A stretch of DNA of 64,000 nucleotides from Streptomyces sp. CA-210063 (lineage in GTDB: Bacteria > Actinomycetota > Actinomycetes > Streptomycetales > Streptomycetaceae): positions 4,712,001-4,776,000 of the forward strand of contig NZ_CP102512.1 in assembly GCF_024612015.1 (NCBI RefSeq), written 5' to 3'. A model generated the notes under the pieces. The model worked only from the letters and a program-made list of their open reading frames with translations, did no database searches and had not been told where the DNA came from. Both the position numbers and the translations under genes were made by a program. Shown here in pieces: positions 22,040-45,134 of the stretch. Each line of letters opens with the position of its first letter. Positions within the stretch are counted from its first letter, which is position 1.

Positions 22040-22113
22040 CGGGGTGTAGCGCAGCTTGGCAGCGCGCTTCGTTCGGGACGAAGAGGTCGTGGGTTCAAAT
22101 CCCGCCACCCCGA
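22040..22113 (+). tRNA. tRNA-Pro (anticodon CGG)
   Basis: A 74-base cloverleaf: acceptor CGGGGTG (22040-22046) pairs with CACCCCG (22106-22112), discriminator A. The anticodon stem CTTCG/CGAAG encloses loop TTCGGGA with anticodon CGG at 22074-22076, and the T-arm holds GGTTCAAAT. No CCA is encoded. Integration of the AICE restores the gene because the 45-bp att repeat supplies the 3' half from the anticodon loop onward. Confidence 0.95.
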
Positions 22114-22114
22114 C
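22070..22114. other. attL core (45-bp direct repeat, copy 1)
   Basis: Identical to 45090-45134; it runs from the anticodon loop to one base past the tRNA-Pro 3' end. The bases just outside differ between the copies (T before and G after here; G and A at the other). Confidence 0.95.
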
Positions 22115-23307: not shown

Positions 23308-24526
23308 TCATCCGGCGCCTCGCAGGGGGACTTCAATAATGTGGACCTTTTCTCTGCTCTCCACGTCCCAATCTTCGGCGAATATGTCATCCATCGCTTC
23401 GGCCCCCTCCGTGATCACAGGCCGGAGTTGCTTGCGGTAGACCGCCTCGGTTGTCGCCTGGCTGCTGTGACCGACCAAGAGAGCGATCCGTTCCAGCGGG
23501 ATGCCGTGGTCTGAAAGCAGGGAAACGAAGCTGTGCCGGAGCTCCCGCGGTGTCCACTCCGGCCTCAGACCGGCCTTCTTCACGATGGCCTTGAAATCGC
23601 GCCGGACGTTGGCCGCGTCGAGCGGCTCACCGCTCCGGGTAGTGAAGACCCGGCCGGTGGGGGCCCACTCCATCCCTCGCGATGCTCGCTCCTGCTTCTG
23701 CCATCGCATGTGCTCTTCGAGGACGTCGACCACCTGCTTCGGCAGAGCGATGGTCCGGCGGCTCTTCCTGGTCTTGGTCTCACCATGCTTACGGACCGAG
23801 CGCCACACCGCGACGTGAGGCGGGGCCCCCGTCCTTCGGCTCCAGGAAGACGTGATCCCAAGTGAGGGGCCGCGCCTCTTCTGTGCGAACACCACTGAGG
23901 AGCGAGAGCACGAGGTAGGCGTACAGCCGTGACGGTCGCGCGGCGATGAGCACAGCTTTCGCCTGCTCCAAATTGAGTGCCTTGCTCGGGCGACCGGGGC
24001 GCCCCTCCGGCGCGGTGACGAGAAAGGCGACGTTGCGCGCCGCCTTGTCTCGGCGCTGAGCGTGCGCGGTGGACCGGCGCAGGATGGCGAGCAGGTCGCG
24101 CAGGCTTCGCGTCGCGAGGAATTCAGCCCTGTCGTCCAACCAGTCGTCGACGTCGTCCGCGCTGAGTTCCTTGAGCTTGGCCTTGCCGATGAACGGGATG
24201 AGGTGCTTGTTCGCCATCGAGCGGTTCTTGCCGATGGTGCCCTTCTCGTCGCGCCCCTTGAGTCCGCGCTCCAACCAGTCGTTCACCGCGTCCGCCACGG
24301 TGTAGTTGGCCGGCGCCTTGACGCCGGTCTGTACCTCCTTTTTCAAGTCCCGGATCTTGTTGCGGACTTCGGTCTTCGTCTTGCCGTACACCTTCGGTCG
24401 ACGGCGCTTGCCATTCGGGGCGTGCCCCAGAGAAACGGCCCCCACAAAGCTCTTCTTTTTGGGGTCCCAATAGATCGTGTCCGCACCGTGGCCCGCCCTG
24501 GTGGCGCGTTTCGGGGTCTCGGTCAT
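23308..24526 (-). pseudogene. int: AICE tyrosine integrase, frameshifted
   Basis: Phage-type tyrosine recombinase that would insert the element into tRNA-Pro. The N-terminal part (arm- and core-binding domains, then the first catalytic arginine in LSGVRTEEARPLTW) is in one frame; the rest (TPRELRHSF, LVGHSSQATTEAVY with the tyrosine) is in another. The frames join around 23815-23832 at a G5C4 tract: removing one base would give a continuous ~400-residue protein. ATG 24526 is likely the start, since GGAGGC precedes it; ATG 24544 is also in frame. As read, the product stops soon after the frameshift and lacks the catalytic tyrosine. Confidence 0.85.
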
Positions 24527-24548
24527 GCCGTGTTGTGCCTCCATAGGA

Positions 24549-26555: not shown

Positions 26556-27441
26556 GCCGCCCTCCGCTGACCGTTGCGAGCGATCGACCAGTTCAGACCG
26601 CTGCGAATGGTCGCCTCACACGACCGCGGCGAGAGACCGGCCTGCTCCCCCGCCCACTGAAGAGCCTCCTCAACCTGCTCCCTGGGGAGGTCGCCCCACG
26701 CGATGAACCGCCCCAAGGCTCGCGCCGCCCGCAGCAACGTGGCGTTGCGCTCGCCCTCCGGTGCCTGCCGTACGGACGCGGTTTCCGCGTTCAAGCCCGC
26801 TGCGGTGTAGCTGGTCGCCCGTACGGACGACGGTGCAGCCGTTAGTGCCCGCGAAGCCTGACGGGCAGTCAGGCGGGCGTGCAGCCAATCGGGCAGGGGC
26901 GCGGGCTGCATATCACTGACGACCGCGTAGGCCCCCTGGGGGTGAGGCTGCCGGGGGCGACGACGTAGCCACCCCACGCGCGGGTGTCGATACGTTTGGC
27001 GAGCCGTCCGGCGGTGTTGCCGAGCCGGACGCCGGGCGGGGCGGTGAAGTACAGGTGGACCCCGCCGCTCGCGGTCCGCACAGTGCGGGTGGCAGGTACA
27101 GCCTGTCCGGTGCGCTCGCAGAGCGCCGTGAAGGTTGTCACGCCGTTAGGCGTGTCCGTACTGCTCTTCCGCTTGGGCATGTCGAGGTCGACGACGACCA
27201 GCCCGGACGGGCCGGTCGCGATGCCGACGTTGAACGGCAGGTCGCCCCACGCGCGGCGGATGCGGTCGGGGTCGATGGTGGCACGCTCTTCCCACCTGCG
27301 GTGACCGCCGGCGCAGTCCCCGATGCCGGGGCAGACGTCTTCACCGTGCAGGGCCGGACGCTTGTCGCCGGGGCGCAGCGGAAGGACGGCCCAGCCTCGC
27401 TCTGCCGCGTCCAGGGCGGCAAACAGGAGGTGACGGTTCAT
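26552..27441 (-). pseudogene. Prim-pol (bifunctional primase/polymerase), frameshifted
   Basis: N-terminal part (27441 to ~26935) shows the Prim-Pol fold: WAVLPLRPGDKRP, GIATGPSGLVVVDLDMPK (catalytic Asp-x-Asp) and GGVHLYFTAPPGV. The frame is lost after YVVAPGSLTP at ~26935-26945 and the C-terminal 125 residues (GAYAVVSD, ...) continue in another frame. One more C in the C5 run there would restore an unbroken protein of ~295 residues. This would be the element's replication initiator or primase, so its loss would block autonomous replication. Confidence 0.85.
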
Positions 27442-28683: not shown

Positions 28684-30921
28684 TCAGCCCGCGTCCCGCT
28701 TTCCGTCACGCTCCGCAATCGCGGCCGTGATGTGGGAGCGGTCGACACCGCGCCGGTTGACGACCTTGCCGTCCACCCGGCGACCCACCTGGATCGTGGA
28801 CAGACCCTGCGGCTTCAGGGCCGCGGCGAGTGTCTCGGGCTCCCAGCCGTCGTAGACCTCGGGGCGCAGTTCGGCGAGCCGCGCGACGACGGTTTCCGAC
28901 CACACCTTGGTCTCCTTGACGGGGATCACGGCGAGGATGTCGGCGAGCAGGTCGTACGCGCTCGCGGCCGTCTCCGGCTCCTCCCCCAGCGCGTGACCGG
29001 ACAGGGTGCCCGCGTCTTCGCGTGCCTTGCGGGCGCGGGCGGCGATGCTGTCGGCTCCGGGTCCGTCCACGTACACCGAGCCCACGATCCGGGCGTCGGA
29101 GCCTTCACTCACGAAGTAGTGGATGCCCTTGTCGCCCCAGGCGAACATGGTGGCGCGCACGCCGCGCTTGTACGCGGACGTGCCGAGCACCATGTCGTTC
29201 TCCAACTGCCCCATGACCTTCAGGCACCAACGCGCCGACGCGTTCGCGGAGATGCCCGTGGGCAATGCCTTGGCGTCCGGGCGCTGTGTGGCGAGCAGCA
29301 GCACGATGCCGGTGGCCGGACCGCGCTTGACCAGGTCTGTTGCGATCTCCTCGAACTCGTCCTTGTGCTTGGGGTGCTCGAACAGCACCTGGCACTCGTC
29401 CACCCCGATCACGATGGGGTGCAGCCCAAGGGAGCGCTTGTCGGCGAGTTCGCTGGTCACCTTCGACTCCGGGCAGATGTCCCGCGGAAGCGAGCGGATC
29501 ACCTTGGTGCGGCGGCGCAGTTCCTCGCGCAGCGCCCGGAAGTCGTTCAGCGCGTACTCGATGGCGTCGTCATCGTCGCCCGCGGCGTGCCGGTGCGAGA
29601 CGGCGTTGCCGACCGGGTCCAGGTCGCCGGTGCCCTTCATGTCGTAGGTGTGCAGCTCGGCGCGCGGGTCCAGCGCGGCGATGAGCAGGAGCAGGCGGAG
29701 CAGGAAGGTCTTGCCCATGCGCGGGATGGCGCCGATGATGCCCGCGATGTACATCAGGGTGACCTCTACCCAGCGTCCGCGCTGGTCGGTGCCGTAGGCG
29801 ACGGGCTTGAACAGGTTGACGCTGCCGCTGTTCATCAGCGGCCACTTGGGCTTGCGGGACGTCGACATGTCCTGATCGCCGACCCACAGCACGAGATGAC
29901 CGGTGTGCTCGTTCGGCACCGCCTCAGGCCACACACACCCCAGCGGGCGGCGCAGACCGGACGCGAGCCGGTCACGCCGCTCGATCACGTCCGTGACCGT
30001 CACGCCGTACGGGAGGTTGCCCTCCGCGCGCCAGCCCGGACCGTCCCGTGTGATGGGCGCGGTGAACTCGAAGCCGTCGCGGCCCTTGCCCTGCGCCTGG
30101 TTGATGGCGGGGATGCCGAGCGAGCCGAGCGCCCGCAGCACGATGTCACTGGTGAGCTTGACAGCCTTGGGCAACTCCACCGCGCGGTGGATGACCGGAG
30201 CATCCGCCCGGCGGCCGGCGAACCCGAGCGCCATCCCGACCGCGCCCACCGACACCGCCTGAAGCCAGGCAGGGGCGAGCACGTAGATGGCGAGCGCGGA
30301 GCCGAGCCCGATGAACATCGCGAGCACGGTCACGAGGGTGCGCAGTCGGACCCGTCCGTCGCGCTGCCGTGACAGCTTCAGGTACTCGGCCGCGTCCTCA
30401 CGCCTCACGGCGGCGAGTCGGACCGGCTCGCCCTCGCGGTCGGCCATCCACCGCATGGTGCCGCCCACGAACTTGGCGGCACCGGACGGCGCCTGAAGCG
30501 TGAGCCGTGCGGCGTAGACCGGCGAGCGCAGCGCGTGATAGCCGACCGAGTGGGCGTAGTGGCGTGCCACCCACGCCGTGGCGGTCTTCAGCTCCGCCAC
30601 GGACTTCAGCCACGCGGGAACGACCGGGCGGCGCTGCGCGGCGAGCAGCCGACCGAGGTAGCCCGGACCGGTCGCCTTGGCAGTCGGCAGGTCGACCATC
30701 ACGCGTGCGGTCGGGTCGCCCGACTCGGTGCCCGACCGCTCCGGCGCGGAGTCGGCCGACCGGTCGGAGTCGGGTCGGGCGGTCGGGTCGGCCGACTGCT
30801 CGCGGGCCGACCGTGCCTTGTCGAGGTCGACTACCTCGCCACCCGAGTCGGCAGCGCGGTCGGTGTTCAGCTCTGCTTCGAGTCGGTTGAAGAGTTCGTT
30901 GTCGTCGTCGGGGTGCTTCAC
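28684..30921 (-). CDS. traB: TraB-type FtsK/SpoIIIE DNA translocase
   Basis: A 745-residue conjugation motor that moves double-stranded DNA between mycelial cells. It has a charged, low-complexity N-terminus, one or two membrane segments (~195-240), Walker A GAIPRMGKTF (~397-406) and Walker B HPIVIGVDECQVLF (~501-514), then an FtsK-like RGPATGIVLLLATQRPDAKALPTG region. The C-terminus has a small winged-helix-like segment (GLSTIQVGRRVDGKVVNRRGVDRSH in overlapping pieces) that may read DNA repeats. The gene is intact, unlike many around it. Confidence 0.92.
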   Translation of the reverse strand: MKHPDDDNELFNRLEAELNTDRAADSGGEVVDLDKARSAREQSADPTARPDSDRSADSAPERSGTESGDPTARVMVDLPTAKATGPGYLGRLLAAQRRPVVPAWLKSVAELKTATAWVARHYAHSVGYHALRSPVYAARLTLQAPSGAAKFVGGTMRWMADREGEPVRLAAVRREDAAEYLKLSRQRDGRVRLRTLVTVLAMFIGLGSALAIYVLAPAWLQAVSVGAVGMALGFAGRRADAPVIHRAVELPKAVKLTSDIVLRALGSLGIPAINQAQGKGRDGFEFTAPITRDGPGWRAEGNLPYGVTVTDVIERRDRLASGLRRPLGCVWPEAVPNEHTGHLVLWVGDQDMSTSRKPKWPLMNSGSVNLFKPVAYGTDQRGRWVEVTLMYIAGIIGAIPRMGKTFLLRLLLLIAALDPRAELHTYDMKGTGDLDPVGNAVSHRHAAGDDDDAIEYALNDFRALREELRRRTKVIRSLPRDICPESKVTSELADKRSLGLHPIVIGVDECQVLFEHPKHKDEFEEIATDLVKRGPATGIVLLLATQRPDAKALPTGISANASARWCLKVMGQLENDMVLGTSAYKRGVRATMFAWGDKGIHYFVSEGSDARIVGSVYVDGPGADSIAARARKAREDAGTLSGHALGEEPETAASAYDLLADILAVIPVKETKVWSETVVARLAELRPEVYDGWEPETLAAALKPQGLSTIQVGRRVDGKVVNRRGVDRSHITAAIAERDGKRDAG

Positions 30922-31894: not shown

Positions 31895-31942
31895 ACTCCA
31901 ACATTTTCGCAGGTCAGATAGCCTTTCTGCTAGCTTCCGTGG

Positions 31943-33222
31943 ATGCTTGGACGGGAACCCGAGAGGGAGTTAGCAAGCTTCGTGCTGCCCGAGGCTGGAC
32001 AGCTGGCGGAGACAGGAGATCGATGGAGACCGTTTGTCCTCCTGGACGCGGACGGTGTCGAGATCGAACCTGTGGCCGCCTTCTTCGCGGAGCTGCTGTT
32101 TGTGACAAGTCAGCAGCCACGATCCGGTCATACGGAATGGATCTGCTGCGTTGGTGGCGCTTCCTGTGGGGCTGGGGGATTGCCTGGGATCGTGCAGGCC
32201 GGTCGGACGCTCGGGACTTCGCCCGCTGGATGCAGATCGCGAACAAGTTCGCACCGCTGCACTGGCGCCACCGACGGGCCATCCAGACGGAGACAACACC
32301 AAAGCCAGTACGAGAGCAGCTGCCGCCCGGAGCCCCCAATCCGATCACAGGAAAGTCGTCCCCAGGGCCGAGATACGCGCCGACAACGCGAGCGCACTGC
32401 GAGACCGTCCTGCGGGCCTTCTACGACTTCCACCTCTCCGAGGGAACCGGCCCGATCCTGAACCCGTTTCCACTGGATCGCTCCCGGCGCCGTGGCAGGG
32501 CACACGCTCACCACAACCCTGACGAGCGGTTTCGCCACGAACGACAGGGCCGCTACCGGCCGGCCATCCCCAAGCGAGCGCCTCGGCGGATCCCCGACGC
32601 GATGTTCAACGCGCTCTTCGCCGCGCTGAAGCACGACCGTGATCGAGCTCTGCTGGCGTTTTGGGTCTCCAACGGGGCTCGTGCTGAGGAACTGCTCACC
32701 AGTCGGCAACGCGACGCGCTGCCCGGCCAACAGGTCCTGGGGGTGGTCCGCAAGGGGAGCCGGGCCTATCAACAACTCCCCTGCTCAGCCGACGCTTTCG
32801 TCTGGCTACGGCTCTATCAGGAGAGCGCCTGGCGGGCGGGGGTCCCCCGCGGACAGAGCGAGGGGCTGTGGTGGACGTTACGCCGTCCGTGGCGTCCCCT
32901 GAACTATCCGGCGGCCCGTGCGATGTTCAACCGGGCCAACAGCTTGCTCGGTACAAACTGGACTCTCCACGATCTTCGACACACCGCCGCCTATCGGCTG
33001 GCGAGGGATCCGAAGATGCCACTGACCGACGTGCAGTGGGTGCTCGGCCATGCACACCTGTCGACGACACAGCTCTATCTGCCGGCCGACCGGGACGAGG
33101 TGATCGAACACGTTCGAGCACACCATGCCCGACGGGCCAAGTCCGCCGAGCGGGTTCCACCGCCACCGGCGGCCGGTTACAACCCTGAATCCCTCAACAA
33201 CCTCTTCGGGACTGCCTGGTGA
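31943..33222 (+). pseudogene. TnpA-like tyrosine recombinase, frameshifted near N-terminus
   Basis: The first ~50 residues (MLGREPERELASFVLPEAGQ..., ending AAFFAELLF) are in one frame; from ~32100 the protein continues in another (CDKSAATIRSYGMDLLRWW...). One extra T in the GTTTG at 32098-32102 would fuse them into a ~427-residue protein. Catalytic residues are seen later: first Arg in NGARAEELL, HDLRH, LGHAHLSTTQLY. A product from an internal start would lack part of the DNA-binding arm. It overlaps the second recombinase by GTGA. Confidence 0.8.
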
Positions 33223-35699
33223 CACCTGCAGAGACGATGTCCGTCGCCACGCATGTCGCACCTCCCACGTCCCTGAGCCTGGCCGGAGAAGCATTGAGGG
33301 CCGTCGCCCTGCGCTTCCCGCCCAGACCTGCCGCGGACGACTGGGCGGCCACGGCAGGCACGCAGGCCGACATCCTGGCTCGTCTGCAGCAGCCTCCCTT
33401 GCGGCCGGCGGACGTGAGGCACCACCGAGCCCGGATCCGCGGAGCTCGCCAAATCTTGCAGTGGCTGGACACCTTCTCCGGGGCCACCTGGCAGCAGCGG
33501 TGGAACGCCAGCCCCGCCAGCACACGTCCTGGCAACGACTGGGCGCGGTTGGCACCCGGCTGGATCGGAACCGCCGCGGGCCCCTCGCAACGGCAGACCT
33601 TGTCCGGCGGGCTACTGAGTTTGATCTGTGCAGACGTCATCAGGCCAGCCCTCCCCTGGCTGCTTTCGCGAACCTCGGCCAACATGACCAGCCTGCGGAT
33701 CGGGCTCATCCCTACCCGTGATCCGGAAGGATTCTCCCAGCTTGAAGCGATGATCGAACCTGCTACATGGTCCTCCAACGTCGGGCGCCATGCCCTGCAC
33801 GCGCTGGTCAAGATCGTTGCCGCCAAGGGCGGCACCTTGGCCGACATCACCGTCGGCGACGCAGTGGAGTATCTCGCCGCGCTCAAAGCAGCGAACGACA
33901 AATCCCGCGGCTACACCCTCTTCTATGCCTGGCTGAGGGAGTTGGGCACCCTCCCTGCAGAAGCACCCAGCTCGCTGCGCTACCTGGCCAACACCAGTGG
34001 GCAGGTATCGATGGAACAGCTCATCGACCGATTCGGCGTCCGCTGCCGCCCCATCAGAGATCTTTTGGTGGACTACCTCAAAGAGCGGCAGCCCGGTCTC
34101 GACTACACGTCCCTGAACAATTTATCCCGGCACTTGGCCAGCAACTTCTGGGGCGACCTGGAACAGCATCATCCGGGAATCGACTCTCTCCACCTGGCAC
34201 CCGAGGTGAGCGCGGCCTGGAAGCAGAGATGCCGGACCCGCATCGAACGGCGCCGCCAGCCAGACGGCACAGTGCGTGAAGTGGTGACCGCGCGCGTCAA
34301 CGTCGCCAGCATCATGATCTCTGTGCGGGCGTTCTATCTCGACATCGCCCAGTGGGCCATCGACGAGCCGGCGCGCTGGGGGCCCTGGGCGGTGCCGAGC
34401 CCGATCAAGGACGCGGATGTCGCCGTCGTGAAGGACAACAAGCGGCGCAAAGCCCGGATGGACCACCGGACGCGGGAACGGCTCCCGGCTCTGCCTGCCG
34501 TCGCCCGAGCGGCTTCATCATGCCTGAACGAGGCCAAAGCCCGACTCCAGGCGCTGATGGACACCCCGCCAGGCGACCATTTCACCTTCGCGGGCGACAC
34601 CTTCGCGCGAGCAGCGAAGGACGGAACGACCTGGGCGGTGAACATGGCCACCGGCCGGCGCATCGACCTGGCCCTCGCGGAAAGCCGCGCGTTCTGGGCC
34701 TGGGCAATGGTCGAGTTTCTTCAGCACACCGGGGTCCGCATCGAGGAAATGCTGGAGGCCAGCCATCACAGCCTGATCCAATACAGGCTGCCCACGACCG
34801 GCGAGATCGTCCCCCTCCTGCAGATCGCGCCCTCCAAAACCGACGAGGAACGAGTCATCCTGGTCAGCCCAGAACTCGCCGACGTACTGAGCGCGATCAT
34901 CGCCCGTGTTCGCGACTCGCGCACCGGTGCCGTCCCCTACGTCTCCAGCTATGACATGGCTGAGAAGACCTGGAACCCGCAGATGCCACTGCTCTTCCAA
35001 TGGTGCCGCAGCGGCGAGAGCTCCCGCCTCTCCCCGAAGTTCTTGCGCGAAGCGCTCCAAGAAGTACTGGCGTCTACGAACCTCACCGACTCGGCCGGAC
35101 AGCCCTTGGATTTCTCGCCCCATGACTTCCGGCGGATCTTCATCACCGACGCCATCCGCAGCGGCCTTCCCCCGCACATCGCGCAGGTCATCGCCGGGCA
35201 CACCAACATCAACACGACCATGGGGTACAACGCCATCTACCCCAGCGAGGCGATCGAGGCGCATCGCGCGTTCATCGCGCGGCGCCGAGCGCTGCGTCCC
35301 AGCGAGGAGTACCGAACCCCAACCAACGAGGAGTGGGACGCCTTCCTCGGGCATTTCGAGCGACGCAAACTGTCCATCGGGATCTGCGCTCGCGCATTCG
35401 GCACTCCATGCATCCACGAACACGCTTGTATTCGATGCTCCATGCTCCGACCGGATCCGGCTCAGAGACACCGCCTCGTCGAGATTCGCGACAACCTGAT
35501 CGCCCGAATCACCGAAGCCGAACAGGAGGGATGGCTCGGTGAGATCGAAGGACTCCGAGTCAGCCTCGCCAGCGCAGAGGAGAAGCTCACCCAGCTCGAT
35601 GCAGAGCAAGTCCGTCAACGCCAAGTGATCGATCTCGGCATGCCGCGCTTCAGCCAGATCGCGACACGAATCAGTACGGCAAAAGGACCTTCAAGTTAG
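33219..35699 (+). CDS. TnpB-like tyrosine recombinase
   Basis: An 826-residue tyrosine recombinase with a long N-terminal region. The catalytic core shows the first Arg in HTGVRIEEML, HDFRRIF and AGHTNINTTMGYNAIY with the nucleophilic Tyr. A cysteine/histidine cluster (GTPCIHEHACIRCSML) and a C-terminal coiled coil follow, as in the TnpB of Tn554-type elements. GTG start overlaps the stop of the TnpA-like gene. Intact. A truncated relative of its C-terminus lies at 40965-41435. Confidence 0.88.
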   Translation: MTPAETMSVATHVAPPTSLSLAGEALRAVALRFPPRPAADDWAATAGTQADILARLQQPPLRPADVRHHRARIRGARQILQWLDTFSGATWQQRWNASPASTRPGNDWARLAPGWIGTAAGPSQRQTLSGGLLSLICADVIRPALPWLLSRTSANMTSLRIGLIPTRDPEGFSQLEAMIEPATWSSNVGRHALHALVKIVAAKGGTLADITVGDAVEYLAALKAANDKSRGYTLFYAWLRELGTLPAEAPSSLRYLANTSGQVSMEQLIDRFGVRCRPIRDLLVDYLKERQPGLDYTSLNNLSRHLASNFWGDLEQHHPGIDSLHLAPEVSAAWKQRCRTRIERRRQPDGTVREVVTARVNVASIMISVRAFYLDIAQWAIDEPARWGPWAVPSPIKDADVAVVKDNKRRKARMDHRTRERLPALPAVARAASSCLNEAKARLQALMDTPPGDHFTFAGDTFARAAKDGTTWAVNMATGRRIDLALAESRAFWAWAMVEFLQHTGVRIEEMLEASHHSLIQYRLPTTGEIVPLLQIAPSKTDEERVILVSPELADVLSAIIARVRDSRTGAVPYVSSYDMAEKTWNPQMPLLFQWCRSGESSRLSPKFLREALQEVLASTNLTDSAGQPLDFSPHDFRRIFITDAIRSGLPPHIAQVIAGHTNINTTMGYNAIYPSEAIEAHRAFIARRRALRPSEEYRTPTNEEWDAFLGHFERRKLSIGICARAFGTPCIHEHACIRCSMLRPDPAQRHRLVEIRDNLIARITEAEQEGWLGEIEGLRVSLASAEEKLTQLDAEQVRQRQVIDLGMPRFSQIATRISTAKGPSS

Positions 35700-35757: not shown

Positions 35758-36387
35758 CTACAGGCGGCGGGCCAGCAAATGGGTGTCGAGGAAGCCCCGC
35801 TCGGACGCTGGGTCGTGGAGCAGCCGGGCGAACGTGACGAGTCCGGCCTCGGCGAGCAGCTCGGCGAACCGGTCCGCCGGCCAGCTATAGGCGGGCGTCA
35901 CCTTGTGGTCGAAGCGGACCGGCTCCGGTCCCTCGGTCCCGAAGAAGGACACCAAGAGCAGGCCCCCTGGTGCCAGGACACGCACCTGCTCGGCGAGCAG
36001 CGCGGGCAATTCTCCAGGTGGGGTATGGATCATCGAGTAGTGGGCCAGCACTCCGCCGAGCGCACCGTCCTCGACCGGCAGGGCCTCCATCCGCGCCTCA
36101 TCGAACCGCAGCGCCGGATGGGCCCGCCGGGCGTGGGCGACCATCGCCGGGGAGAGGTCGAGCCCGAAAGCGTCCAGCCCCAAGTCATGCAGCATCGCCG
36201 TCACATGACCGGGGCCGCACCCGACGTCGGCTACCCGCAGGTTCCCCGTGCCACGCACGAGCTCGGCGAAAGTGCCGATCATGTTCCGCGCGAACGGGTG
36301 CGTCTCCAGCCCATTGGCGAACATCGACGCGTACAGATCGACGACCCCGTCATAGGCCGCCCTCGTCTCGTCCTGGTGTCCTAACAC
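35758..36387 (-). CDS. Class I SAM-dependent methyltransferase
   Basis: A ~209-residue methyltransferase. The SAM-binding motif I is VADVGCGPGHVTAMLHDLG, followed by LDLSPAMV and the post-I acidic residue region, then GGVLAHYSMIHTPP. Substrate unknown. GTG 36387 gives MLGHQDETRAAYD, the usual family start; its second codon is TTA, rare in Streptomyces and dependent on the bldA tRNA. The frame is also open upstream into the 5' GGDEF fragment, so a 357-residue chimera is possible from 36831. Confidence 0.8.
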   Translation of the reverse strand: MLGHQDETRAAYDGVVDLYASMFANGLETHPFARNMIGTFAELVRGTGNLRVADVGCGPGHVTAMLHDLGLDAFGLDLSPAMVAHARRAHPALRFDEARMEALPVEDGALGGVLAHYSMIHTPPGELPALLAEQVRVLAPGGLLLVSFFGTEGPEPVRFDHKVTPAYSWPADRFAELLAEAGLVTFARLLHDPASERGFLDTHLLARRL

Positions 36388-36489
36388 GGGAAGGAAACTA
36401 ACACCCGCGCCGTTCGCCACCGTTCTCCGGCCCCACACCGGTTTCCTCAGGACTGATCGTCCCGTCACCTGATCACGGAACGCTCTCGC

Positions 36490-36497
36490 TAGTTCAG
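36490..36497. repeat. Right core half-site TAGTTCAG
   Basis: Reverse complement of the left half-site at 31887-31894; 7 bases from the right junction of the nested element. Confidence 0.5.
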
Positions 36498-36501
36498 AGA
36501 A

Positions 36502-36831
36502 GAACTCATCGCCCCCGAGCCGCCCCGCGACCCCGGACCGGCCGACGTGGTGGGCGAGCCGGTCGGCGGTCGCCTTCAACAAGGCGTCCCCGGCCGCGTG
36601 CCCGTAGGTGTCGTTGATGTGCTTGAACTTGTCGACGTCGGCGAGTACCACGACCGCGCGCGGGTCCCTGAGCAGGGCTGTGGCGCGGTGGGTGAAGCCA
36701 TCGCGGGTGCGTAACCCGGTGAGCGGGTCACGCCGGGCGGTGTTGAGGCAGCCTCGCAGCCACCACACATGCACCACCCAACCAGCGGCCAGGGGCAGCG
36801 CGGACAGCAGGACCGTGGCCAGGGTGTTCAC
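36502..36831 (-). pseudogene. GGDEF protein, 5' fragment
   Basis: Codes for an N-terminal membrane segment (LLSALPLAAGWVVHVWWL), then RDPLTGLRTRDGFTHRA and VVVLADVDKFKHINDTYGH, ending in RLGGDEF, the active-site loop. GTG 36831 overlaps the stop of the DUF2637 gene. The protein would be a membrane-linked diguanylate cyclase-like AICE protein; it is cut right after the GGDEF motif. Confidence 0.88.
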
Positions 36832-37834
36832 GCGGCCACCCCCTCGACACTGTCGCCGGCCGCCGTGGCGTCGGGAGCGGTGACGGCGTGCAGCGGACGG
36901 CCGTCGGCGCGCTCGCTCTTAAGGGTGTCGCGCAGTGTGCGGGCGTTGGCCTGCGAGACGTGGACCGCCGTGCGGATGCGATCCGCGGTCAAGTCAGCGT
37001 CCGGCCACTCAGAGGTGACCGCGCGCGCCTCGGTCAGCAGCTCCTCGAAGGTGCGCTGTGCCTTGGCCTTGCCCTTGGCGGGTGCCCGGCGGCGCGGGCG
37101 CGGCTTGGCGTCGACCGGGGGCGCCGGCGGATTCTCTACCGGGGGCGGTGCGGGCGTCTCCTGCTCGGTGGCAGGGGCCAGGTCGCCCATGCGCAGCATC
37201 ACGCGCTCGCGCCGCGGGGTCTTCGTCCGCCACTTGCGGCCGTAGCGCTCGCGCAGGTCCGCGCGGGCCAACTGTCGTTCCTTCTCCAGCGTCAGCGCCT
37301 CGGAGTACGAGGTGACCTCCCACAGCGTCATGCGGCGCCACACAGGGCGAAGGTGGAGGGGAAGGCGAGCAGCCAGCGGGAGAACCGAATCTTCTCCATG
37401 CGGCGGCCGGTGGCCGCGCCGATCCGCACGGCGTAGATGTGCGCGCCGATCTCGGAGAACACGACCCACAGCAGCGGCATCGTGCCGTGCGCGACCTTGG
37501 CCGACAGGGAATGACCGGCCGCGATGTTCAGCCCGCACGTGATCAGCGTGAGCACCCAGGGCACGAACCGCACCCACGCGAGCGCCATATCCATGCGGAT
37601 CAACAGCAGGTTGGCCACGGTGAACACCGGAATGGCCACGTCGATACCAACCGGCAGCATCCACGGCTCGCCGAACCCCCAGCGGGCCGCAGCCTCGGAG
37701 ACGGCGTCGAACGAGGAGATCAGGCCGAGCGCGCCGACTCCGGCCGCGGCGAGCGCGCCGACTCCGGCGAGCCCCATCTCCGGGCGGGTCAGCGGCGGCA
37801 CGGCCGACGACTCGATGGTCTGCACGGTCGTCAT
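36828..37834 (-). pseudogene. DUF2637 membrane protein, frameshifted
   Basis: Start ATG 37834. The first ~160 residues form four membrane segments (GLAGVGALAAAGVGALGLIS, ..., CGLNIAAGHSLS, MPLLWVVFSEIGAHIYAVR) as in DUF2637 proteins of AICEs and actinobacterial plasmids. After FPSTFAL the frame ends at TGTGTGG (~37336-37342); the cytoplasmic tail, starting WRRMTLWEVTSYSEALTLEK, is in another frame to 36828. An extra TG dinucleotide explains the shift. The tail has a winged-helix-like region near its end (TADRIRTAVHVSQANARTLR). Confidence 0.85.
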
Positions 37835-38160
37835 GCCGCACCCCCGACCAACACCGGGGCGACGATGTCCGCGTAGCCAGTCAGACGGACCACCGGGCCC
37901 GCGTAGTCGACGGTCGTGCGCAGGACTCGCGTCCGGCCGTCGCTCTGCTCGCGGTAGGTCACAGCGTCCGGGGCGATCCCCAGGGCCTCCCGCCACGCCT
38001 CGAAGCCCGGCAGGTCGTCGTAGAACGTCAGCTCCAACCGCTCCGGGTAGACGGTGGACACCTGCACCGACGGTGCCGACAGGTGCCCGAAGTCCGCGGC
38101 CAGTAGGCGCAGCGCGCGCAGGGGCACGGCGAGATCGTCCAGCGTCAGCGCGTCACTCAT
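37831..38160 (-). CDS. AICE hypothetical protein, 109 aa
   Basis: A 109-residue protein (MSDALTLDDLAVPLRALRLL...) with mixed alpha/beta character and no motif I recognise. Coupled by ATGA at both ends to neighbours in the transfer operon. Confidence 0.75.
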   Translation of the reverse strand: MSDALTLDDLAVPLRALRLLAADFGHLSAPSVQVSTVYPERLELTFYDDLPGFEAWREALGIAPDAVTYREQSDGRTRVLRTTVDYAGPVVRLTGYADIVAPVLVGGAA

Positions 38161-38898: not shown

Positions 38899-39501
38899 AT
38901 GGCCCGACCGAGGACGTTCGACGAGGAAGGTGCCCTGGATGCGGCGATGCGCACGTTCTGGGAGAAGGGCTACGAGGCCACCTCCACACAGGACTTGTGT
39001 GACGCCACAGGACTGGGACGCAGCAGCATTTACAACACATTCAAGAGCAAGCACGATCTCTTCGAGCGCGTACTGGCCCGCTACATCGACTCCATGACGA
39101 CTGCCCAGCTGGCCGTCCTGGAGGACACCCGACACAGCGCCGCCGACCGGCTGCGCACCCTGTTCGCCATGGTCGTCGACGGCGAGACGGAGACGGACCA
39201 TCGGACGGGCGGACGTGGCCTCGGCTGTCTGACCGTGAACACCACGGTCGAGTTGGTCGCCCGGGACCCGCGGGCAGCGGAAATGCTGGACCGCGACACA
39301 CGGCGTCGACTGACGGCACTGCGCGCGGTGCTCCAGGAGGGGCAGCGGGAAGGCAGCATCACCTCTCCTCGCGACGCCGGAGCGCTTGCCCGCTTCGTCA
39401 ACGCGGCGATCGGCGGCATGCGCATCTCCAGTCAGGGCGGCGCCGACCGGGCCGCACTGGAGTCGATCGCCGAAATCACCATGGACGCACTCACCGGCTG
39501 A
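38899..39501 (+). CDS. TetR-family repressor
   Basis: A 200-residue regulator. The N-terminal HTH is FDEEGALDAAMRTFWEKGYE followed by TSTQDLCDATGLGRSSIYNTF; the C-terminal ligand domain is of the TetR_C_16-like type. It likely represses itself and the adjoining MFS gene through the two operators. Start ATG 38899. Confidence 0.92.
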   Translation: MARPRTFDEEGALDAAMRTFWEKGYEATSTQDLCDATGLGRSSIYNTFKSKHDLFERVLARYIDSMTTAQLAVLEDTRHSAADRLRTLFAMVVDGETETDHRTGGRGLGCLTVNTTVELVARDPRAAEMLDRDTRRRLTALRAVLQEGQREGSITSPRDAGALARFVNAAIGGMRISSQGGADRAALESIAEITMDALTG

Positions 39502-39540
39502 CGGCGCACGCCACCGGGGGCCGCGTCCACGCCTGCCCAC

Positions 39541-39562
39541 GTTTTGGACCGTTCAATACATA
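39541..39562. promoter_or_regulatory. TetR operator, copy 2
   Basis: GTTTTGGACCGTTCAATACA, between tetR and the MFS gene, is the inverted counterpart of the site at 38861-38883. Confidence 0.6.
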
Positions 39563-39585
39563 ACTGACCTCGAAGGAGATCGAAC

Positions 39586-40809
39586 GTGCCTCGTGCCGTA
39601 TACGTCCTGGCACTCGGCATCTTCGCCATGGTGACCAGTGAGTTCGTGGTCGCCGGGCTGATGCCGCAGATGGCCGAAGGACTGGACGCGACCATCCCTC
39701 AGATCGGCTACCTCATCACCGCCTTCGCGGTGGCCATGGCCGCCGGCGGCCCGTTCCTGACCGTGGCCCTGATGAAGTTCCCACCACGTACGGCACTGAT
39801 GGTGCTATTCGTCATCTTCCTCGCCGGCAACGTACTGGCCGCCACCGCGACCGGCTACGGCACGATGATGGCCGCGCGGATCATCGCCGGCATCGCCTCC
39901 CAGGCGTTCTTCGGCGTGGGCATCTCGATGTGCGCCCAGATCACCCGCCCGGAGATCCGGGGCCGCGCGATCGCCGTCGTGATGAACGGCCTCATGCTCG
40001 GCACCCTGCTCGGGCTGCCCATCTCCACGCTGGTCGGCGAGCGTTTCGGCTGGCGCGCCGCGTTCTGGACGATCACCCTGATCACCGTGGTGGCGGCCGG
40101 GACCACCCTGTTCGGCGTGCCCCGCATCGAACGCGCGGCGAGCAGCGGCGGCTTGCGCCAGGAGGTCGGCGTCTTCAAGAAGCCCAAGATGTGGCTGGTG
40201 CTGTCCAGCAGCACACTGATCATCGGCGCCACCTTCTCCGCCTTCAGCTACTTCAACCCCATCCTCACCGACGTCACCGGCTTCTCCACCGGCACCGTCC
40301 CCCTGCTTCTCGTCGCCTACGGCGCCGCCACCGTCATAGGCAACAACGTCGTCGGTCGTTTCGCCGACGGGCACACCGTCCCGGTCCTTGCCGTCGGCCT
40401 CGTCCTCAACACGCTGTTCCTGACCGGCTTCGCCCTCCTCGCCGACGTACCCGCCCCGGCCGTCATCTGCATGATGGGCATCGGCCTGGTCGGCGTCACC
40501 ATGAACCCGGCCATGGTGACCCGCGTCCAGCACACCGGCAACGCAGGCCCCCTGGTCAACACCGTGCACTCCTCCTTCATCACCCTCGGCATCATCCTCG
40601 GCTCCTCCATCGGCGCCGTGGTGATCGACACCTGGGGGCTGCGCGCTCCGCTCTGGCTCGGCGCTGTCTTGGCGCTGGTCGGCCTGGCCACCGTCCTGCC
40701 CGATCTCGCCCGCCGCACCACCCTGGCTACCGGCCCCGCCCCCTTGTCTGCCCTGCCCGACGAAGGGAACGAGTTTGCACCCGCTGATCAGTCGGCAAGG
40801 AAGCGATAG
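39586..40809 (+). CDS. MFS drug-efflux transporter (DHA1/AraJ-like)
   Basis: A 407-residue transporter with 12 predicted membrane segments. The opening VLALGIFAMVTSEFVVAGLM and the loop RGRAIAVVMNGLMLGTLLG fit the DHA1 drug:H+ antiporters near AraJ/CmlR. GTG 39586 has AAGGAG at 39573-39578. Controlled by the neighbouring TetR. The last codons (from ~40788) run over an IS5-type transposase remnant on the other strand, so the C-terminal tail (ADQSARKR) is probably not the original one. Confidence 0.9.
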   Translation: MPRAVYVLALGIFAMVTSEFVVAGLMPQMAEGLDATIPQIGYLITAFAVAMAAGGPFLTVALMKFPPRTALMVLFVIFLAGNVLAATATGYGTMMAARIIAGIASQAFFGVGISMCAQITRPEIRGRAIAVVMNGLMLGTLLGLPISTLVGERFGWRAAFWTITLITVVAAGTTLFGVPRIERAASSGGLRQEVGVFKKPKMWLVLSSSTLIIGATFSAFSYFNPILTDVTGFSTGTVPLLLVAYGAATVIGNNVVGRFADGHTVPVLAVGLVLNTLFLTGFALLADVPAPAVICMMGIGLVGVTMNPAMVTRVQHTGNAGPLVNTVHSSFITLGIILGSSIGAVVIDTWGLRAPLWLGAVLALVGLATVLPDLARRTTLATGPAPLSALPDEGNEFAPADQSARKR

Positions 40810-40964: not shown

Positions 40965-41435
40965 TCAGCGGTCGGCGGGAGCGGGGTGCCGTCCGGGGTC
41001 TCCTGTTCCTGGCGGGGGTGCGGGGTCGGTGATGACGGGCATTCCGAGGTCGACCAGTTGAGGGCGTCCGTCGGTGGAAGTGTTCTTGAGGCTGTTGAGC
41101 TTGGCCATCGCAGCGTCGAAGCTGACCTGAAGTCCCTCAACCTCGCCGAGCCAGCCGTTGGCGCGGGCCTCGCGGATGCGTTCGCGGAGGTTCTGGATGA
41201 TCTCGATGAGGCGGGGCTTCTGGCGGGGGTCCATCTGGAGGACCGGGCAGCGGATGCAGGCGTGCTCGTGCTTGCAGGGGGTTCCGTAGGGACGCCCGCA
41301 GGTGCCGAGCGAGACCTTGCGGAGTTCGAAGTGCTGCTGGAAGTCGCGCCACTCCTGCGGCGTGGGCTCCCGGTATTCCTCCTGGGGACGCGCCGCGCGG
41401 CGACGGTCGAGGAAACCGCGGTAGGTCCTGATCAA
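40965..41435 (-). pseudogene. TnpB-like recombinase, C-terminal fragment
   Basis: A 157-codon frame from IRTYRGFLDRRR through GTPCKHEHACIRCPVL to a coiled-coil end (WLGEVEGLQVSFDAAMAKLN), clearly homologous to the C-terminus of the recombinase at 33219-35699 (GTPCIHEHACIRCSML, WLGEIEGLRVSLASAEEKL). The catalytic core is missing, so this is a second, dead copy of a Tn554-like element. Confidence 0.85.
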
Positions 41436-41843: not shown

Positions 41844-44471
41844 TCACCAAGGCGAAGCGACACTTCCATCAGGTTCAAGTCCGAACTTGAGAATCTGCGG
41901 CCATGGCTCTACCGATCCCATGTTACGAGCAAACTCAATGAGCAAATAGCTATCACCTCCATCAACAGCTTGCCGCACGTATGCTTGAGTTTCCCCGGAT
42001 AGCCTTGAGGTCATTAACGTAAGCAATAGCGATGTGGATGCCGTGGCACCGGCCTGCTCAATCGCGTAGCGAAGAAGGTCATTAGCCCGATCAGCGCTAT
42101 CATTGGCTAGCAGGTGCTCTGCAAGCTGTGAAATGGCGAAGAAGTTGCCTTGATCAGCCGATTCCTTAGCTAGCATTTCGGCGCGCTCCGCATCACCGCA
42201 CCTTTCATACATTCGCGCTACATACCAAACCGCTTCCTCATCCCCGTGGCTCAGCACCTCTAGATATAGGCTCTCAGCTTTCTCTAGATTCCCGTCTTCC
42301 TCTTCAAGCGCAGCAAGCTCTCTTAGAGCGTACGAGTCAATGTGCTCAGCCGCTTGCTGGAATATCTGCTTGGCCTCCTCGCGCTGGCCAGCCAGCTTAC
42401 GCATTACGCCAAGTTCGACAAACGAAAAAACGTCACCCATCTCAGACGCCAGCCTGAAAAATCGCTCGGCTGTCTCGAAGTCTCCTTTTTCGCGACTCTC
42501 CAGCCCCAAAGTAAAAAGCGCCTCATCGTCTTGTGTCTCTACCAAAACAGAAATCAGCTCGTCAACCTCACCAGCAGTTCCGAGCTTCACTTTCAACCTG
42601 AGCAAGTCCGTCACCGCATCAGGGCTTCCCGCCTCGGCGGCCAGCCAAAAAATGCGCTCAGCCTCGTTCAGGTCACCCTTCCCTTTGCATATCCTGGCTA
42701 CCTCCCACAGAGCAGTTGGGTAACCGGCAGTTGCAGCCTCCTCCGCAAATCGCATGGCCTCAGCATGGTCGCCGTTATGCTCACACCATCTTGCCGCGTC
42801 GCGTAGCGCAAAGACATCTCCAGCTTTCACCGCAGCGAGTGTAAGACGCTCCCTGGATTCAAGGTCTTCTGCTTGCTCCCGCAGAAACGCCAACCACCTA
42901 AGCGCCTCTGTGCTACCGAATTCTGCCGCCTTATTGTACAAATCGGCGGCAACCCTTTTCCGCCATCGATCCCGCGCAGAGGCAGCAATCGACATCAACT
43001 CTTCGACCGACTCAAGCGTTTCTCTCGCAGCGTTCCAGAACCCCTGTGGCGGAACAAGGTATTTCCGAACGTCCCGAGCATATTGATCCAGATAGTCCGC
43101 TAGACGGACCACACCGGGCTGCGCACCCATACCACTGTCATTCGGAACATCCTGCAGGGCAGCAGCCACACCCTTGATCTTCGTACGAGCGTACGCCAGA
43201 GCATCAGTGAACCACGTTGCCGGGTCTGCCGAGGCGCGCTCTTCAGGCGTCAGATACGCGGGGGTAGCAGCTTCTAAGAAATGCAAGGATAGCGGCTCGG
43301 ATATTCCCAGACGGCGGGCATCCATAGCGGCCGTAATCACGGCCTTTCCATATGGCCCACTTACCCCGGAGGGGTGTTCGTAATGGTCAACCAAGTTTGG
43401 AGCCGCAGCCAGGAATTGCGTGACGCTATCAGAGGCGGTACTGAGAACCGCTGACAGTGACGCGTCTTCTGACGCACGCGCCCTAACCTCCTCAAGTGCA
43501 GCATCAGAGAAGGAGGCGGGCACCTCAATTCTAAATTCCTGAGAAAGAAGCTCACGGGCGTGATGATGCGAGTCCTCGTGCCCCGGCGATGGAGTCACTG
43601 TGAGCTCTTTGTGATACTCAGGCCAGACTGTCGCAATGACTAGCGCGGGCCCAGGGTCTTCAAGGTGTCTACGCAATGCTGCGGCAGCAGCTTCACCGTA
43701 CTTTCCGTAAAAGAAGTTCTGTGCTTCATTAAGCCAGAGAATCGTGTTGCACTCGAACGCGCCAGCAGCGAGGACAGCTAGTAAGCTATCCGCATCCTTA
43801 GGGAAAACAAGATCCCACTCGGAAAGGATGGCTTTAACTGCCTCGTATGCGGTTCTGGTTTTGCCAGTGCACGAACTCCCCCTAATGACAACAAGACCCT
43901 TATTTCCTCCTTCCGCGAGCAATGCGAGGTGCTGGCGAACACCTGAGTCATGCGGGCGTTCGATATACGTCGGGAGTGCGAAACGACTAGACGTTTTCCC
44001 TGGCTCACCACCAACGGCCGGATGGACACCCAATTGCTGCGGGGTCCAAGACGTCATGGGGCGCGGCTTATCCGGCAGAGCAGCAAACCGCTCTTTTGCC
44101 GCGTTAGCCGCAAGAATGCTACGGGCGCGGGCCCGGTTGACATCATCGCGCGTATTTCGCGCACGTTGCGCTGCTTCTGCTTGATGCGCGTTACGCCAGT
44201 GACGCTCATCAAGCAGTGCGGCCACCGTGGGATCACCGAGGAGCTCCCGCGTCTGGGCTTCCTCACGCAAGGCATCGACGACAACCAACAGCTCGTCGAC
44301 CCGTTGAGGGAAGCGTTTCCCTCGCAACCACTGCCCGACGGTCGTCGGAGAGACATTCGCCCTCCTGGCCAGGGCCCTGTCAGCGGGCCGACCGTCCAGC
44401 TTGTCGTTCCTGAGGACTGCAAGATTGCGCACTTCGGCAAGGAACGCGGAGCCTTCCTCCTCGCTGGGCAC
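41844..44471 (-). CDS. HTH-P-loop-TPR STAND-like ATPase, candidate defence gene
   Basis: An 875-residue protein. Residues ~30-60 form an XRE-like HTH (ALARRANVSPTTVGQWLRGK); the P-loop is RGSSCTGKTRTA (197-207) with a Walker B-like ILWLNEAQNFF (244-254); from ~500 to ~830 the protein consists of Sel1/TPR-type helical repeats (for example HNGDHAEAMRFAEEAATAG). This sensor-NTPase-repeat layout is that of STAND proteins, many of which are phage-triggered defence or regulatory switches. The gene has visibly lower GC than its neighbours and uses rare codons, including TTA at Leu230. It lies in the cargo zone near attR. Function is inferred from design only. Confidence 0.7.
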   Translation of the reverse strand: MPSEEEGSAFLAEVRNLAVLRNDKLDGRPADRALARRANVSPTTVGQWLRGKRFPQRVDELLVVVDALREEAQTRELLGDPTVAALLDERHWRNAHQAEAAQRARNTRDDVNRARARSILAANAAKERFAALPDKPRPMTSWTPQQLGVHPAVGGEPGKTSSRFALPTYIERPHDSGVRQHLALLAEGGNKGLVVIRGSSCTGKTRTAYEAVKAILSEWDLVFPKDADSLLAVLAAGAFECNTILWLNEAQNFFYGKYGEAAAAALRRHLEDPGPALVIATVWPEYHKELTVTPSPGHEDSHHHARELLSQEFRIEVPASFSDAALEEVRARASEDASLSAVLSTASDSVTQFLAAAPNLVDHYEHPSGVSGPYGKAVITAAMDARRLGISEPLSLHFLEAATPAYLTPEERASADPATWFTDALAYARTKIKGVAAALQDVPNDSGMGAQPGVVRLADYLDQYARDVRKYLVPPQGFWNAARETLESVEELMSIAASARDRWRKRVAADLYNKAAEFGSTEALRWLAFLREQAEDLESRERLTLAAVKAGDVFALRDAARWCEHNGDHAEAMRFAEEAATAGYPTALWEVARICKGKGDLNEAERIFWLAAEAGSPDAVTDLLRLKVKLGTAGEVDELISVLVETQDDEALFTLGLESREKGDFETAERFFRLASEMGDVFSFVELGVMRKLAGQREEAKQIFQQAAEHIDSYALRELAALEEEDGNLEKAESLYLEVLSHGDEEAVWYVARMYERCGDAERAEMLAKESADQGNFFAISQLAEHLLANDSADRANDLLRYAIEQAGATASTSLLLTLMTSRLSGETQAYVRQAVDGGDSYLLIEFARNMGSVEPWPQILKFGLEPDGSVASPW

Positions 44472-44672
44472 CGACCCCTCCTCTTGTCAGCCGGCTGGCC
44501 GTCTCTGTCCAGGTCTGGCTCCTTGGACAGGGGCAGCTTAAGCCGCTCAGCTGCATCGATGTGGCCTTGCTGTCCAAGTCAGGGCAGAAGGCTGCTGGAC
44601 ACTGCCCGCTACAGCGACCTTCGGAGTGCTGAAGGGCTCACGGTGAGCCCGCTCTAGAAAGGGAGATGCTGA

Positions 44673-44855
44673 GTGATCACGGTTCAGCTGCTGGCGTTGC
44701 TGCTGGCCCTGTCAGTGGCCCTCAACGTTGGAGTGGCAGCCTGTCTGCTCGCCTACCGAGCAGGAACGGCACTGCCGAGCGCTCTCTTGGTGGGGGGTGG
44801 GGCGCTCGGGGGTGTGATGGCACTCTTCCTCTCGGCGGTATCCGCCTACCGATGA
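44673..44855 (+). CDS. Small two-TM membrane protein
   Basis: A 60-residue protein made almost entirely of two membrane segments (VQLLALLLALSVALNVGVAA and LLVGGGALGGVMALFLSAV) ending in SAYR. GTG 44673 has AAAGGGAG at 44658-44665. I recall similar small proteins near integrated elements in Streptomyces; function unknown. The spacer from 44856 to attR holds an arm-type site but no gene. Confidence 0.65.
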   Translation: MITVQLLALLLALSVALNVGVAACLLAYRAGTALPSALLVGGGALGGVMALFLSAVSAYR

Positions 44856-45089: not shown

Positions 45090-45134
45090 CGTTCGGGACG
45101 AAGAGGTCGTGGGTTCAAATCCCGCCACCCCGAC
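45090..45134. other. attR core (45-bp direct repeat, copy 2)
   Basis: Identical to 22070-22114. It carries only the 3' portion of the tRNA (anticodon loop to end) and cannot encode a tRNA by itself. Confidence 0.95.

Follow-up and report, generated by a model that had tools for sequence, protein, structure and literature searches.

The Streptomyces activator AfsR, a STAND protein (signal transduction ATPase with numerous domains), combines a SARP (Streptomyces antibiotic regulatory protein) head with a nucleotide-binding oligomerization domain (NOD) and tetratricopeptide repeats (TPR); according to excerpts of PMC10936776, its NOD and TPR parts inhibit it, ATP binding relieves the inhibition, and it acts at the promoter of the small gene afsS. 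Here we describe a gene in a 64,000-nucleotide stretch of Streptomyces sp. CA-210063 (contig NZ_CP102512.1, positions 4,712,001 to 4,776,000; the window hereafter) whose 875-amino-acid (aa) product carries a helix-turn-helix (HTH) head, a predicted STAND-type nucleoside triphosphatase (NTPase) and a TPR superhelix, and which faces a divergent gene for a small membrane protein. With AfsR it shares the order of DNA-binding head, NOD and TPR, and it may share a small-gene promoter as target and an ATP-binding switch. The heads differ: that of AfsR is an OmpR-type SARP, whereas the window protein has no OmpR-type or BTA match in Pfam, matches HTH_31 and HTH_3 weakly, and has an all-helical head followed by a long helix. 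AfsS is reportedly a small sigma-like protein and not a membrane protein, and we know of no exchange of AfsR for nuclease heads. A supposed S. coelicolor parallel, pairing an AfsR-like protein with a small membrane protein, was set aside, as the excerpted source describes SCO1774 with an alanine dehydrogenase partner (PMC3878966).

The window protein also resembles Avs and related bacterial proteins likened to nucleotide-binding leucine-rich repeat receptors (NLRs), which have a modular head, a central STAND-like NTPase and a repeat sensor; it differs from them in its HTH head and separate small membrane gene. The general understanding of bacterial NLR-like defence proteins is, to our knowledge, that most of them switch on an enzyme fused or attached to them. 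For conflict systems of multicellular bacteria (VMAP, TRADD-N and diversity-generating retroelement ternary systems) an HTH has been proposed as a non-enzymatic effector with a transcriptional or alternate output; there, too, the HTH lies in or near the effector position, the core NTPases are different, and the excerpted passages on these systems name neither a small membrane gene nor a half-site array (PMC7159879, PMC8195603, PMC10907252). Among the literature matches listed, which come from open-licence papers, none describes an HTH-STAND protein paired with a divergent gene for a small membrane protein.

An HTH-STAND protein and its facing small gene

The preliminary description of the large gene had proposed an N-terminal DNA-binding domain, a P-loop and a long helical repeat, and each of these was recovered. 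Within the first 130 aa, HTH_31 (E 0.0016) and HTH_3 (E 0.003) match below their Pfam cut-offs. In the Walker A motif, G198-S-S200-C-T-G203-K204-T, residues G198, S200, G203 and K204 are invariant among 69 aligned sequences, and the Walker B strand is followed by N248-E249, in which N replaces the usual D and the E is kept; TPR/Sel1 repeats make up the C-terminal part. AlphaFold2 modelled the whole protein from a 69-row alignment at a mean predicted local distance difference test (pLDDT) score of 91, as an HTH (residues 9-86), a long helix (89-130), NTPase strands (192-317), a helical part, a winged-helix-like segment (396-468) and TPR helices to residue 863. A core-only model scored 94.5, and the winged-helix-like segment is at high confidence in both models.

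The top three Foldseek rows for the full model were SAMD9 (twice; E 6.5e-9) and PDB entry 6mfv (second row, 7.1e-9), a STAND protein with a TPR sensor for which we know of no HTH/small-gene pairing. Global TM-scores of these rows are low (0.15-0.18 for 6mfv), perhaps because the superhelix bends. The core model returned ORC4, CED-4 and SAMD9, with the SIR2-STAND protein EfAvs5 and NRC2 lower in the list; in a second structural look at the core, AAA+ NTPase domains ranked first and most matches spanned the NTPase part only. Similarity of fold to known STAND members is present, and the STAND fold that had been suggested for the protein is very probable on these models, with a winged helix after the NTPase predicted from secondary structure. 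Searches of PADLOC and NCBIfam gave no convincing match for the 875-aa protein, the best PADLOC row being PrimPol (E 0.056), to the TPR part.

Small divergent ORFs (open reading frames) directly upstream form the most frequent neighbour cluster at 79 genome loci and the window, in three such clusters of 13, 7 and 4 loci; the preliminary description did not contain the facing small gene of the window. Small proteins of families A, B and D have two hydrophobic segments, and those of families E and F have one and a basic tail. The class-B small proteins carry a conserved short polar stretch, KLARxDGATYPAALTR, between their hydrophobic segments, and their ORFs evidently code for protein, because changes between 41 nearest pairs fall mostly at third codon positions (423, 185 and 698 at positions 1, 2 and 3). 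Two plasmid records (L118, L119) have the small gene annotated beside the large one, and the window small protein has four database homologues, three of them on contigs equal in length to ones that carry large homologues.

A usable core was found in 230 of 243 sequences, whose heads comprise 124 of class A (the window-like HTH), 51 of class B (a second HTH; as first counted, including L094, L092 and L095), 6 of class C (a third pattern), 20 shorter than 30 aa and 29 others. An HTH in the place of an effector had been called unusual; instead it is the commonest head in the relatives examined (175 of 230 for classes A and B, in a sample drawn with an HTH-bearing query and hence skewed to HTH), and rather than merely replacing an effector it comes with a divergent small membrane-protein gene and repeated half-sites. 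Of 69 HTH members, 66 have a match to one of five small-gene profiles beside them, against none of 32 members with a different N-terminus (Fisher 3e-23, ignoring relatedness), a tally in which L079, L082, L092 and L095, of a third HTH type, were put by hand with the HTH members and LmuA-headed L094 with the others; the automatic head classes give 64 of 68 against 2 of 33 on the same rows. The profiles (A, B, D, E and F) were seeded from genes beside the STAND family, so that "with" is partly by construction and "without" means none of the five families. Repeated identical proteins were dropped, as were 5 rows whose upstream sequence was shorter than 350 bp and 11 that lacked a usable core; of the latter, 3 had a small-gene match, 6 had none and 2 lay at contig edges. 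The HTH members without a small-gene match are L026, L077_78 and L103, and a family-F match at L111 sits away from the STAND-family gene of that locus. In 20 control regions of 20 kb, hand-picked and not random, from genomes of the same genus, the profiles matched 0 of 5068 ORFs.

The association recurs across the family. On a quick version of the core tree (101 cores), the HTH label takes 15 changes, 9 of them forced by starred branches, and among nine independent HTH/non-HTH pairs set off by such branches the small gene follows the HTH in 7.8 on average, goes the opposite way in 0 and shows no difference in 1.2 (median p 0.008). Head class and small-gene family also correspond: class-A heads occur with families A, E and F, class-B heads with B and the third type with D, the exception being L065, where a class-A head accompanies a B small gene. 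The link between HTH head and small gene is well supported, and the unit of interest is the gene pair with its promoter region, which extends beyond 41844-44471.

Relatives with nuclease heads do without the small gene. L064 begins with a Cap4 nuclease (PF14130, E 6.9e-10); the head of L094 matches the LmuA nuclease (E 7.7e-53) and Avs2 (2e-10) and is followed by a class-B HTH remnant; and L037 (Mrr_cat/LmuA) and P0116 (PDC-M58A, 1e-5) have nuclease-like heads by weak matches only. The Cap4- and LmuA-headed proteins keep a similar NTPase-TPR body: L060, with an HTH and a family-E small gene, and L064 are 79.5% identical over 723 aa. The preliminary description had linked the protein to defence STANDs, and these heads uphold the link for the relatives; for the window protein PADLOC gives no convincing match.

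The small gene is found beside other sensor bodies as well. The class-B profile gave 59 rows at E 1e-5 in 199 genomes of the genus, of which the 32 with E below 1e-12 were placed and 4 of the 27 weaker ones (L153-L156) were fetched. Nineteen of the 32 stand beside a STAND-family core, which in two cases (G078 and G094) is truncated or broken. Another 4 accompany different HTH-STAND proteins, namely HTH-NB-ARC-TPR (L142, L145, L149) and HTH-NACHT (L152), 2 lie beside broken genes that by eye resemble family members (L144, L151), and one is at a contig edge. Because it also accompanies NB-ARC and NACHT bodies, the class-B small gene appears to track the HTH class and not the sensor body. At L142 it lies on the same strand as the large gene, and the pattern GTTC-N24-GAAC precedes the small genes of L142, L152 and L156. 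Family-A small-gene matches lie beside a STAND-family core in 4 of 6 cases.

The region between the two genes contains short half-sites that differ by HTH class and are conserved, making them candidate binding sites. We counted TGTCC/GGACA 61 times in 11 family-A upstream regions (shuffle mean 9.2, maximum 17) and 30 times in 10 family-E/F regions (mean 9.5, maximum 18), whereas 42 class-B regions contain TGTTC/GAACA 106 times (mean 25.5, maximum 42); these regions, of 330 or 170 bp, may take in the start of the STAND gene. GTTC-N24-GAAC is present in 25 of the 42 class-B regions (mean 0.17, maximum 1), and class-B spacings of 14, 24 and 34 advance in steps of about one helical turn. As a control for specificity, neither motif is enriched in the regions of the other class: TGTCC occurs 54 times in class-B regions (mean 40.4, maximum 58) and TGTTC 4 times in class-A regions (mean 4.4).

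A shared palindromic operator upstream of the small gene was also considered and rejected, because the palindromes in 6 of 11 family-A regions are unlike in sequence. Those of the window (44634-44650) and five of the ten other regions have arms of 7-8 bp and a like position, about -41 to -53, and are perhaps an RNA hairpin before the ribosome-binding site. In all, 10 of the 67 regions contain a perfect palindrome, compared with 1-5 in each of ten shuffles.

Several members depart from the common layout. P0071 keeps its HTH and adds a C-terminal nucleosidase/phosphorylase domain (PF01048, 1.4e-13), a possible second effector. Short-headed members (P0066, L019, L045, L047, L058, L062 and others) have motifs such as GGIAAHSIGQL or ARIYQAGGDIIIN, which we take to recall amyloid-type signalling motifs. 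At four loci, including L045, a same-strand ORF overlaps the start of the STAND gene (median distance -91 bp); it could encode a partner or supply the start that such short-headed members lack.

The family reaches well beyond the window. At least 921 relatives were found in a database search in which 8000 candidates were scored. The whole protein matches in 69 of the 199 congeneric genomes (E up to 1e-20) and the core profile in 94 (E up to 1e-10, the weakest of which may be distant kin), some with several copies. Relatives are present in 101 of 72,556 plasmid records, 85 of the 101 being from Streptomyces. Among viral contigs, 64 stretches fit a pattern and none was confirmed. The family is patchy, accessory, partly plasmid-borne, actinobacterial and unseen in phages; it is not the set of fixed core regulators without a mobile link that the preliminary description had named as the finding that would speak against it. 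Elsewhere in the window's own genome (G000:C1:9367142-9370240) lies another HTH-STAND copy, of class B, accompanied by a class-B small gene.

A proposed transcriptional output and its alternatives

We propose that the two genes form a sensor system of the NLR-like kind, which responds by transcription of a membrane protein and is probably directed against invaders; we hold this reading with about even confidence. The TPR superhelix of the STAND protein would sense a cue, ATP binding would open the NTPase/winged-helix switch, and the protein would oligomerise, as STAND biology suggests. The conserved half-sites and the co-occurrence of the genes suggest that the HTH heads may then sit together on the half-site array between the divergent genes and change small-gene transcription; that the HTH controls the small gene, by activation or repression, is likely. 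The trade-off with nuclease heads points to the small membrane protein as executor, which would most likely damage or seal the membrane when a phage or competing element invades, and we find the case for this role evenly poised. The nuclease-headed kin and the mobile setting suggest a phage or rival element as the cue, and the chances that the pair acts against invaders seem to us equally balanced.

Because the nuclease-headed relatives do without the small gene, the HTH, half-sites and small membrane gene may act as one exchangeable output cassette. It is possible, and here we are more tentative, that Actinobacteria possess a portable cassette for transcriptional output from NLR-like immune receptors, made of an HTH head, a matching half-site array and a tiny membrane executor, which is swapped with nuclease heads on one STAND family and used also on NB-ARC and NACHT bodies. 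If so, sensing would lead to de novo synthesis of a membrane effector and not to direct activation of an enzyme. In a widespread family whose DNA-binding head is tied to a promoter and to the gene for a small membrane protein, the receptor would act by gene expression, and STAND regulators (AfsR, MalT) and STAND immune proteins would be joined within one family. The small genes have no convincing Pfam or PHROGs family and are easily missed; the system consists of two genes and a 200-bp promoter region and is hence directly testable.

Several observations weigh against an invader-directed pair with a transcriptional output. No defence island is shown around the loci, whose neighbours were taken without a PADLOC scan, and 50,697 phage records hold 0 relatives. 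The link of relatives to integrated elements is weak: among 56 loci spanning 18 kb or more, 7 hold a protein like those of the window's element, against 0 of 20 control regions, and tRNA genes are not enriched (4 of 56 against 2 of 20). Pfam and PHROGs offer no toxin, holin or other family for the small proteins: A, B, D and F return nothing, and family E gives one weak row in each (DUF4381, E 0.16; phrog_24276, E 0.2). By a crude test, 7 of the 32 non-HTH rows have some hydrophobic divergent ORF outside the five families (L030, L048, L054, L062, L071, L076, L111), and one of four plasmid loci, L117, is of HTH type without a small gene. Of the placed class-B small genes, 6 of 32 have no HTH gene within about 4 kb, as is the case for 3 of the 4 weaker matches fetched, the fourth (L156) being beside an HTH-NACHT gene; L145 lacks the GTTC pattern, and L149 has half-sites without the exact spacing. 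The case for the half-sites rests on conservation, and shuffles ignore common descent.

The lack of phage relatives, together with the 49 of 56 loci that show none of the window element's proteins, would suit an AfsR- or MalT-like STAND activator that rides on a mobile element, answers a metabolic or developmental cue and drives a small protein with a housekeeping or element-maintenance role and not defence. Its model would be AfsR at the promoter of afsS, as excerpts of PMC10936776 describe this SARP-NOD-TPR activator. We consider such a regulator unlikely, as Cap4 and LmuA heads in place of the HTH, the former on a body 79.5% identical to that of an HTH member, fit conflict systems and not metabolism, and the distribution over 94 of 199 genomes is patchy. 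It is also rather improbable that the small protein acts upstream of the STAND protein, keeping it at the membrane as a tether, receptor or inhibitor until damage occurs, with the HTH acting on other targets or regulating its own gene. The conserved polar stretch of the class-B small proteins is of a kind expected for protein contact, and HTH class and small family mostly go together apart from L065; the class-B small gene, however, follows the HTH class onto NB-ARC and NACHT bodies, and the nuclease-headed L037, L064 and L094 have no small gene.

Peptide signalling of the RRNPP type, in which the small ORF would be a pheromone precursor, the TPR protein its intracellular receptor, and cell density would time transfer or defence, is very unlikely. 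Its appeal is the gene arrangement: in excerpts of PMC10075063, RRNPP pairs consist of a small ORF of 10-100 aa adjoining a TPR receptor that often has an HTH, also on plasmids. Validated receptors in these excerpts are of 285-473 aa, against 875 aa here. The window receptor has a central NTPase and lies outside the range of 250-500 aa for a TPR protein with or without HTH, and the window small protein, adjacent and of propeptide size at 60 aa, has two hydrophobic segments where RRNPP systems have a secreted propeptide. We know of no NTPase in RRNPP receptors. Moreover, small families A, B and D carry their second hydrophobic segment at the C-terminus, where the mature peptide would be expected. 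The reading that we prefer to these three remains a sensor protein that acts through transcription of the small membrane gene.

The integrated element

The pair lies at the right end of a 23-kb element between two attachment (att) repeats (Table 1). By its gene content this is of the AICE type (actinomycete integrative and conjugative element): direct repeats at a tRNA 3' end, an integrase, a Prim-Pol protein and an FtsK/TraB translocase, the last a weak match, are all present, together with DUF2637 and DUF3631 proteins between the att sites. The gene had been described as cargo of such an element, and this placement stands. Genes listed from Frankia AICEs include NB-ARC and NACHT-type proteins (PMC3218068, in excerpt).

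Table 1. Positions of the gene pair, its promoter region and the surrounding element in the window
Feature	Position	Strand	Remarks
HTH-STAND-TPR gene	41844..44471	-	875 aa, GTG start
HTH region, residues 9-86	44214..44447	-	weak Pfam matches and model helices
P-loop NTPase, residues about 172-390	43302..43958	-	Walker A 198-205; Walker B strand 243-247, then NE
Winged-helix-like segment, residues 396-468	43068..43286	-	three helices, two-stranded wing, helix; secondary structure of models
TPR/Sel1 superhelix, putative sensor, residues about 476-863	41883..43046	-	family matches and model
Half-site TGTCC	44506..44510	+	class-A half-site
Half-site GGACA	44525..44529	+	class-A half-site
Half-site TGTCC	44571..44575	+	class-A half-site, within GCTGTCCAAG
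Half-site GGACA	44597..44601	+	class-A half-site
Perfect palindrome just upstream of small gene	44634..44650	.	8-bp arms
AGGGAG, likely ribosome-binding site of small gene	44660..44665	+	by eye
Divergent small gene, family A	44673..44855	+	60 aa, GTG start, two hydrophobic segments
Left att site, tRNA-Pro 3' end	22070..22114	.	45-bp direct repeat
Right att site	45090..45134	.	45-bp direct repeat, identical
Integrase, two overlapping ORFs	23308..24544	-	family match
Prim-Pol replication protein	26869..27441	-	E 4.9e-44
FtsK/TraB-like translocase	28684..30921	-	weak match, TraB-like E 4.9e-5, far below its cut-off
DUF2637 protein	37328..37996	-	family match

The preliminary description had also noted a base composition and TTA and CTA codons unlike the host, which holds for the window copy. 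The GC content of the large ORF is 0.568 against 0.692 for the window, and it has 3 TTA and 13 CTA among 876 codons, where ten other window genes have 0-1 and 0-3. Low GC was rejected as a mark of foreign origin for the family, the median GC difference to the flanks being +0.020 for 17 class-A and +0.014 for 30 class-B relatives; because relatives are not GC-poor, it is a property of the window copy.

The element shows signs of rearrangement. The catalytic and N-terminal parts of its integrase are in different frames, so the enzyme may be inactive, and the element may therefore no longer move. Two overlapping tyrosine-recombinase genes (31939-35699, + strand) and an ORF (40965-41435, - strand) that resembles by eye, without a family match, the tail of another tyrosine recombinase are perhaps transposon insertions. 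At 35758-36831 (- strand) a partial GGDEF domain and a methyltransferase share a single ORF, which may have arisen by fusion where a deletion or insertion occurred. Further cargo at 38899-40809 (+ strand) comprises a TetR-like regulator, recognised by eye, and an MFS transporter.

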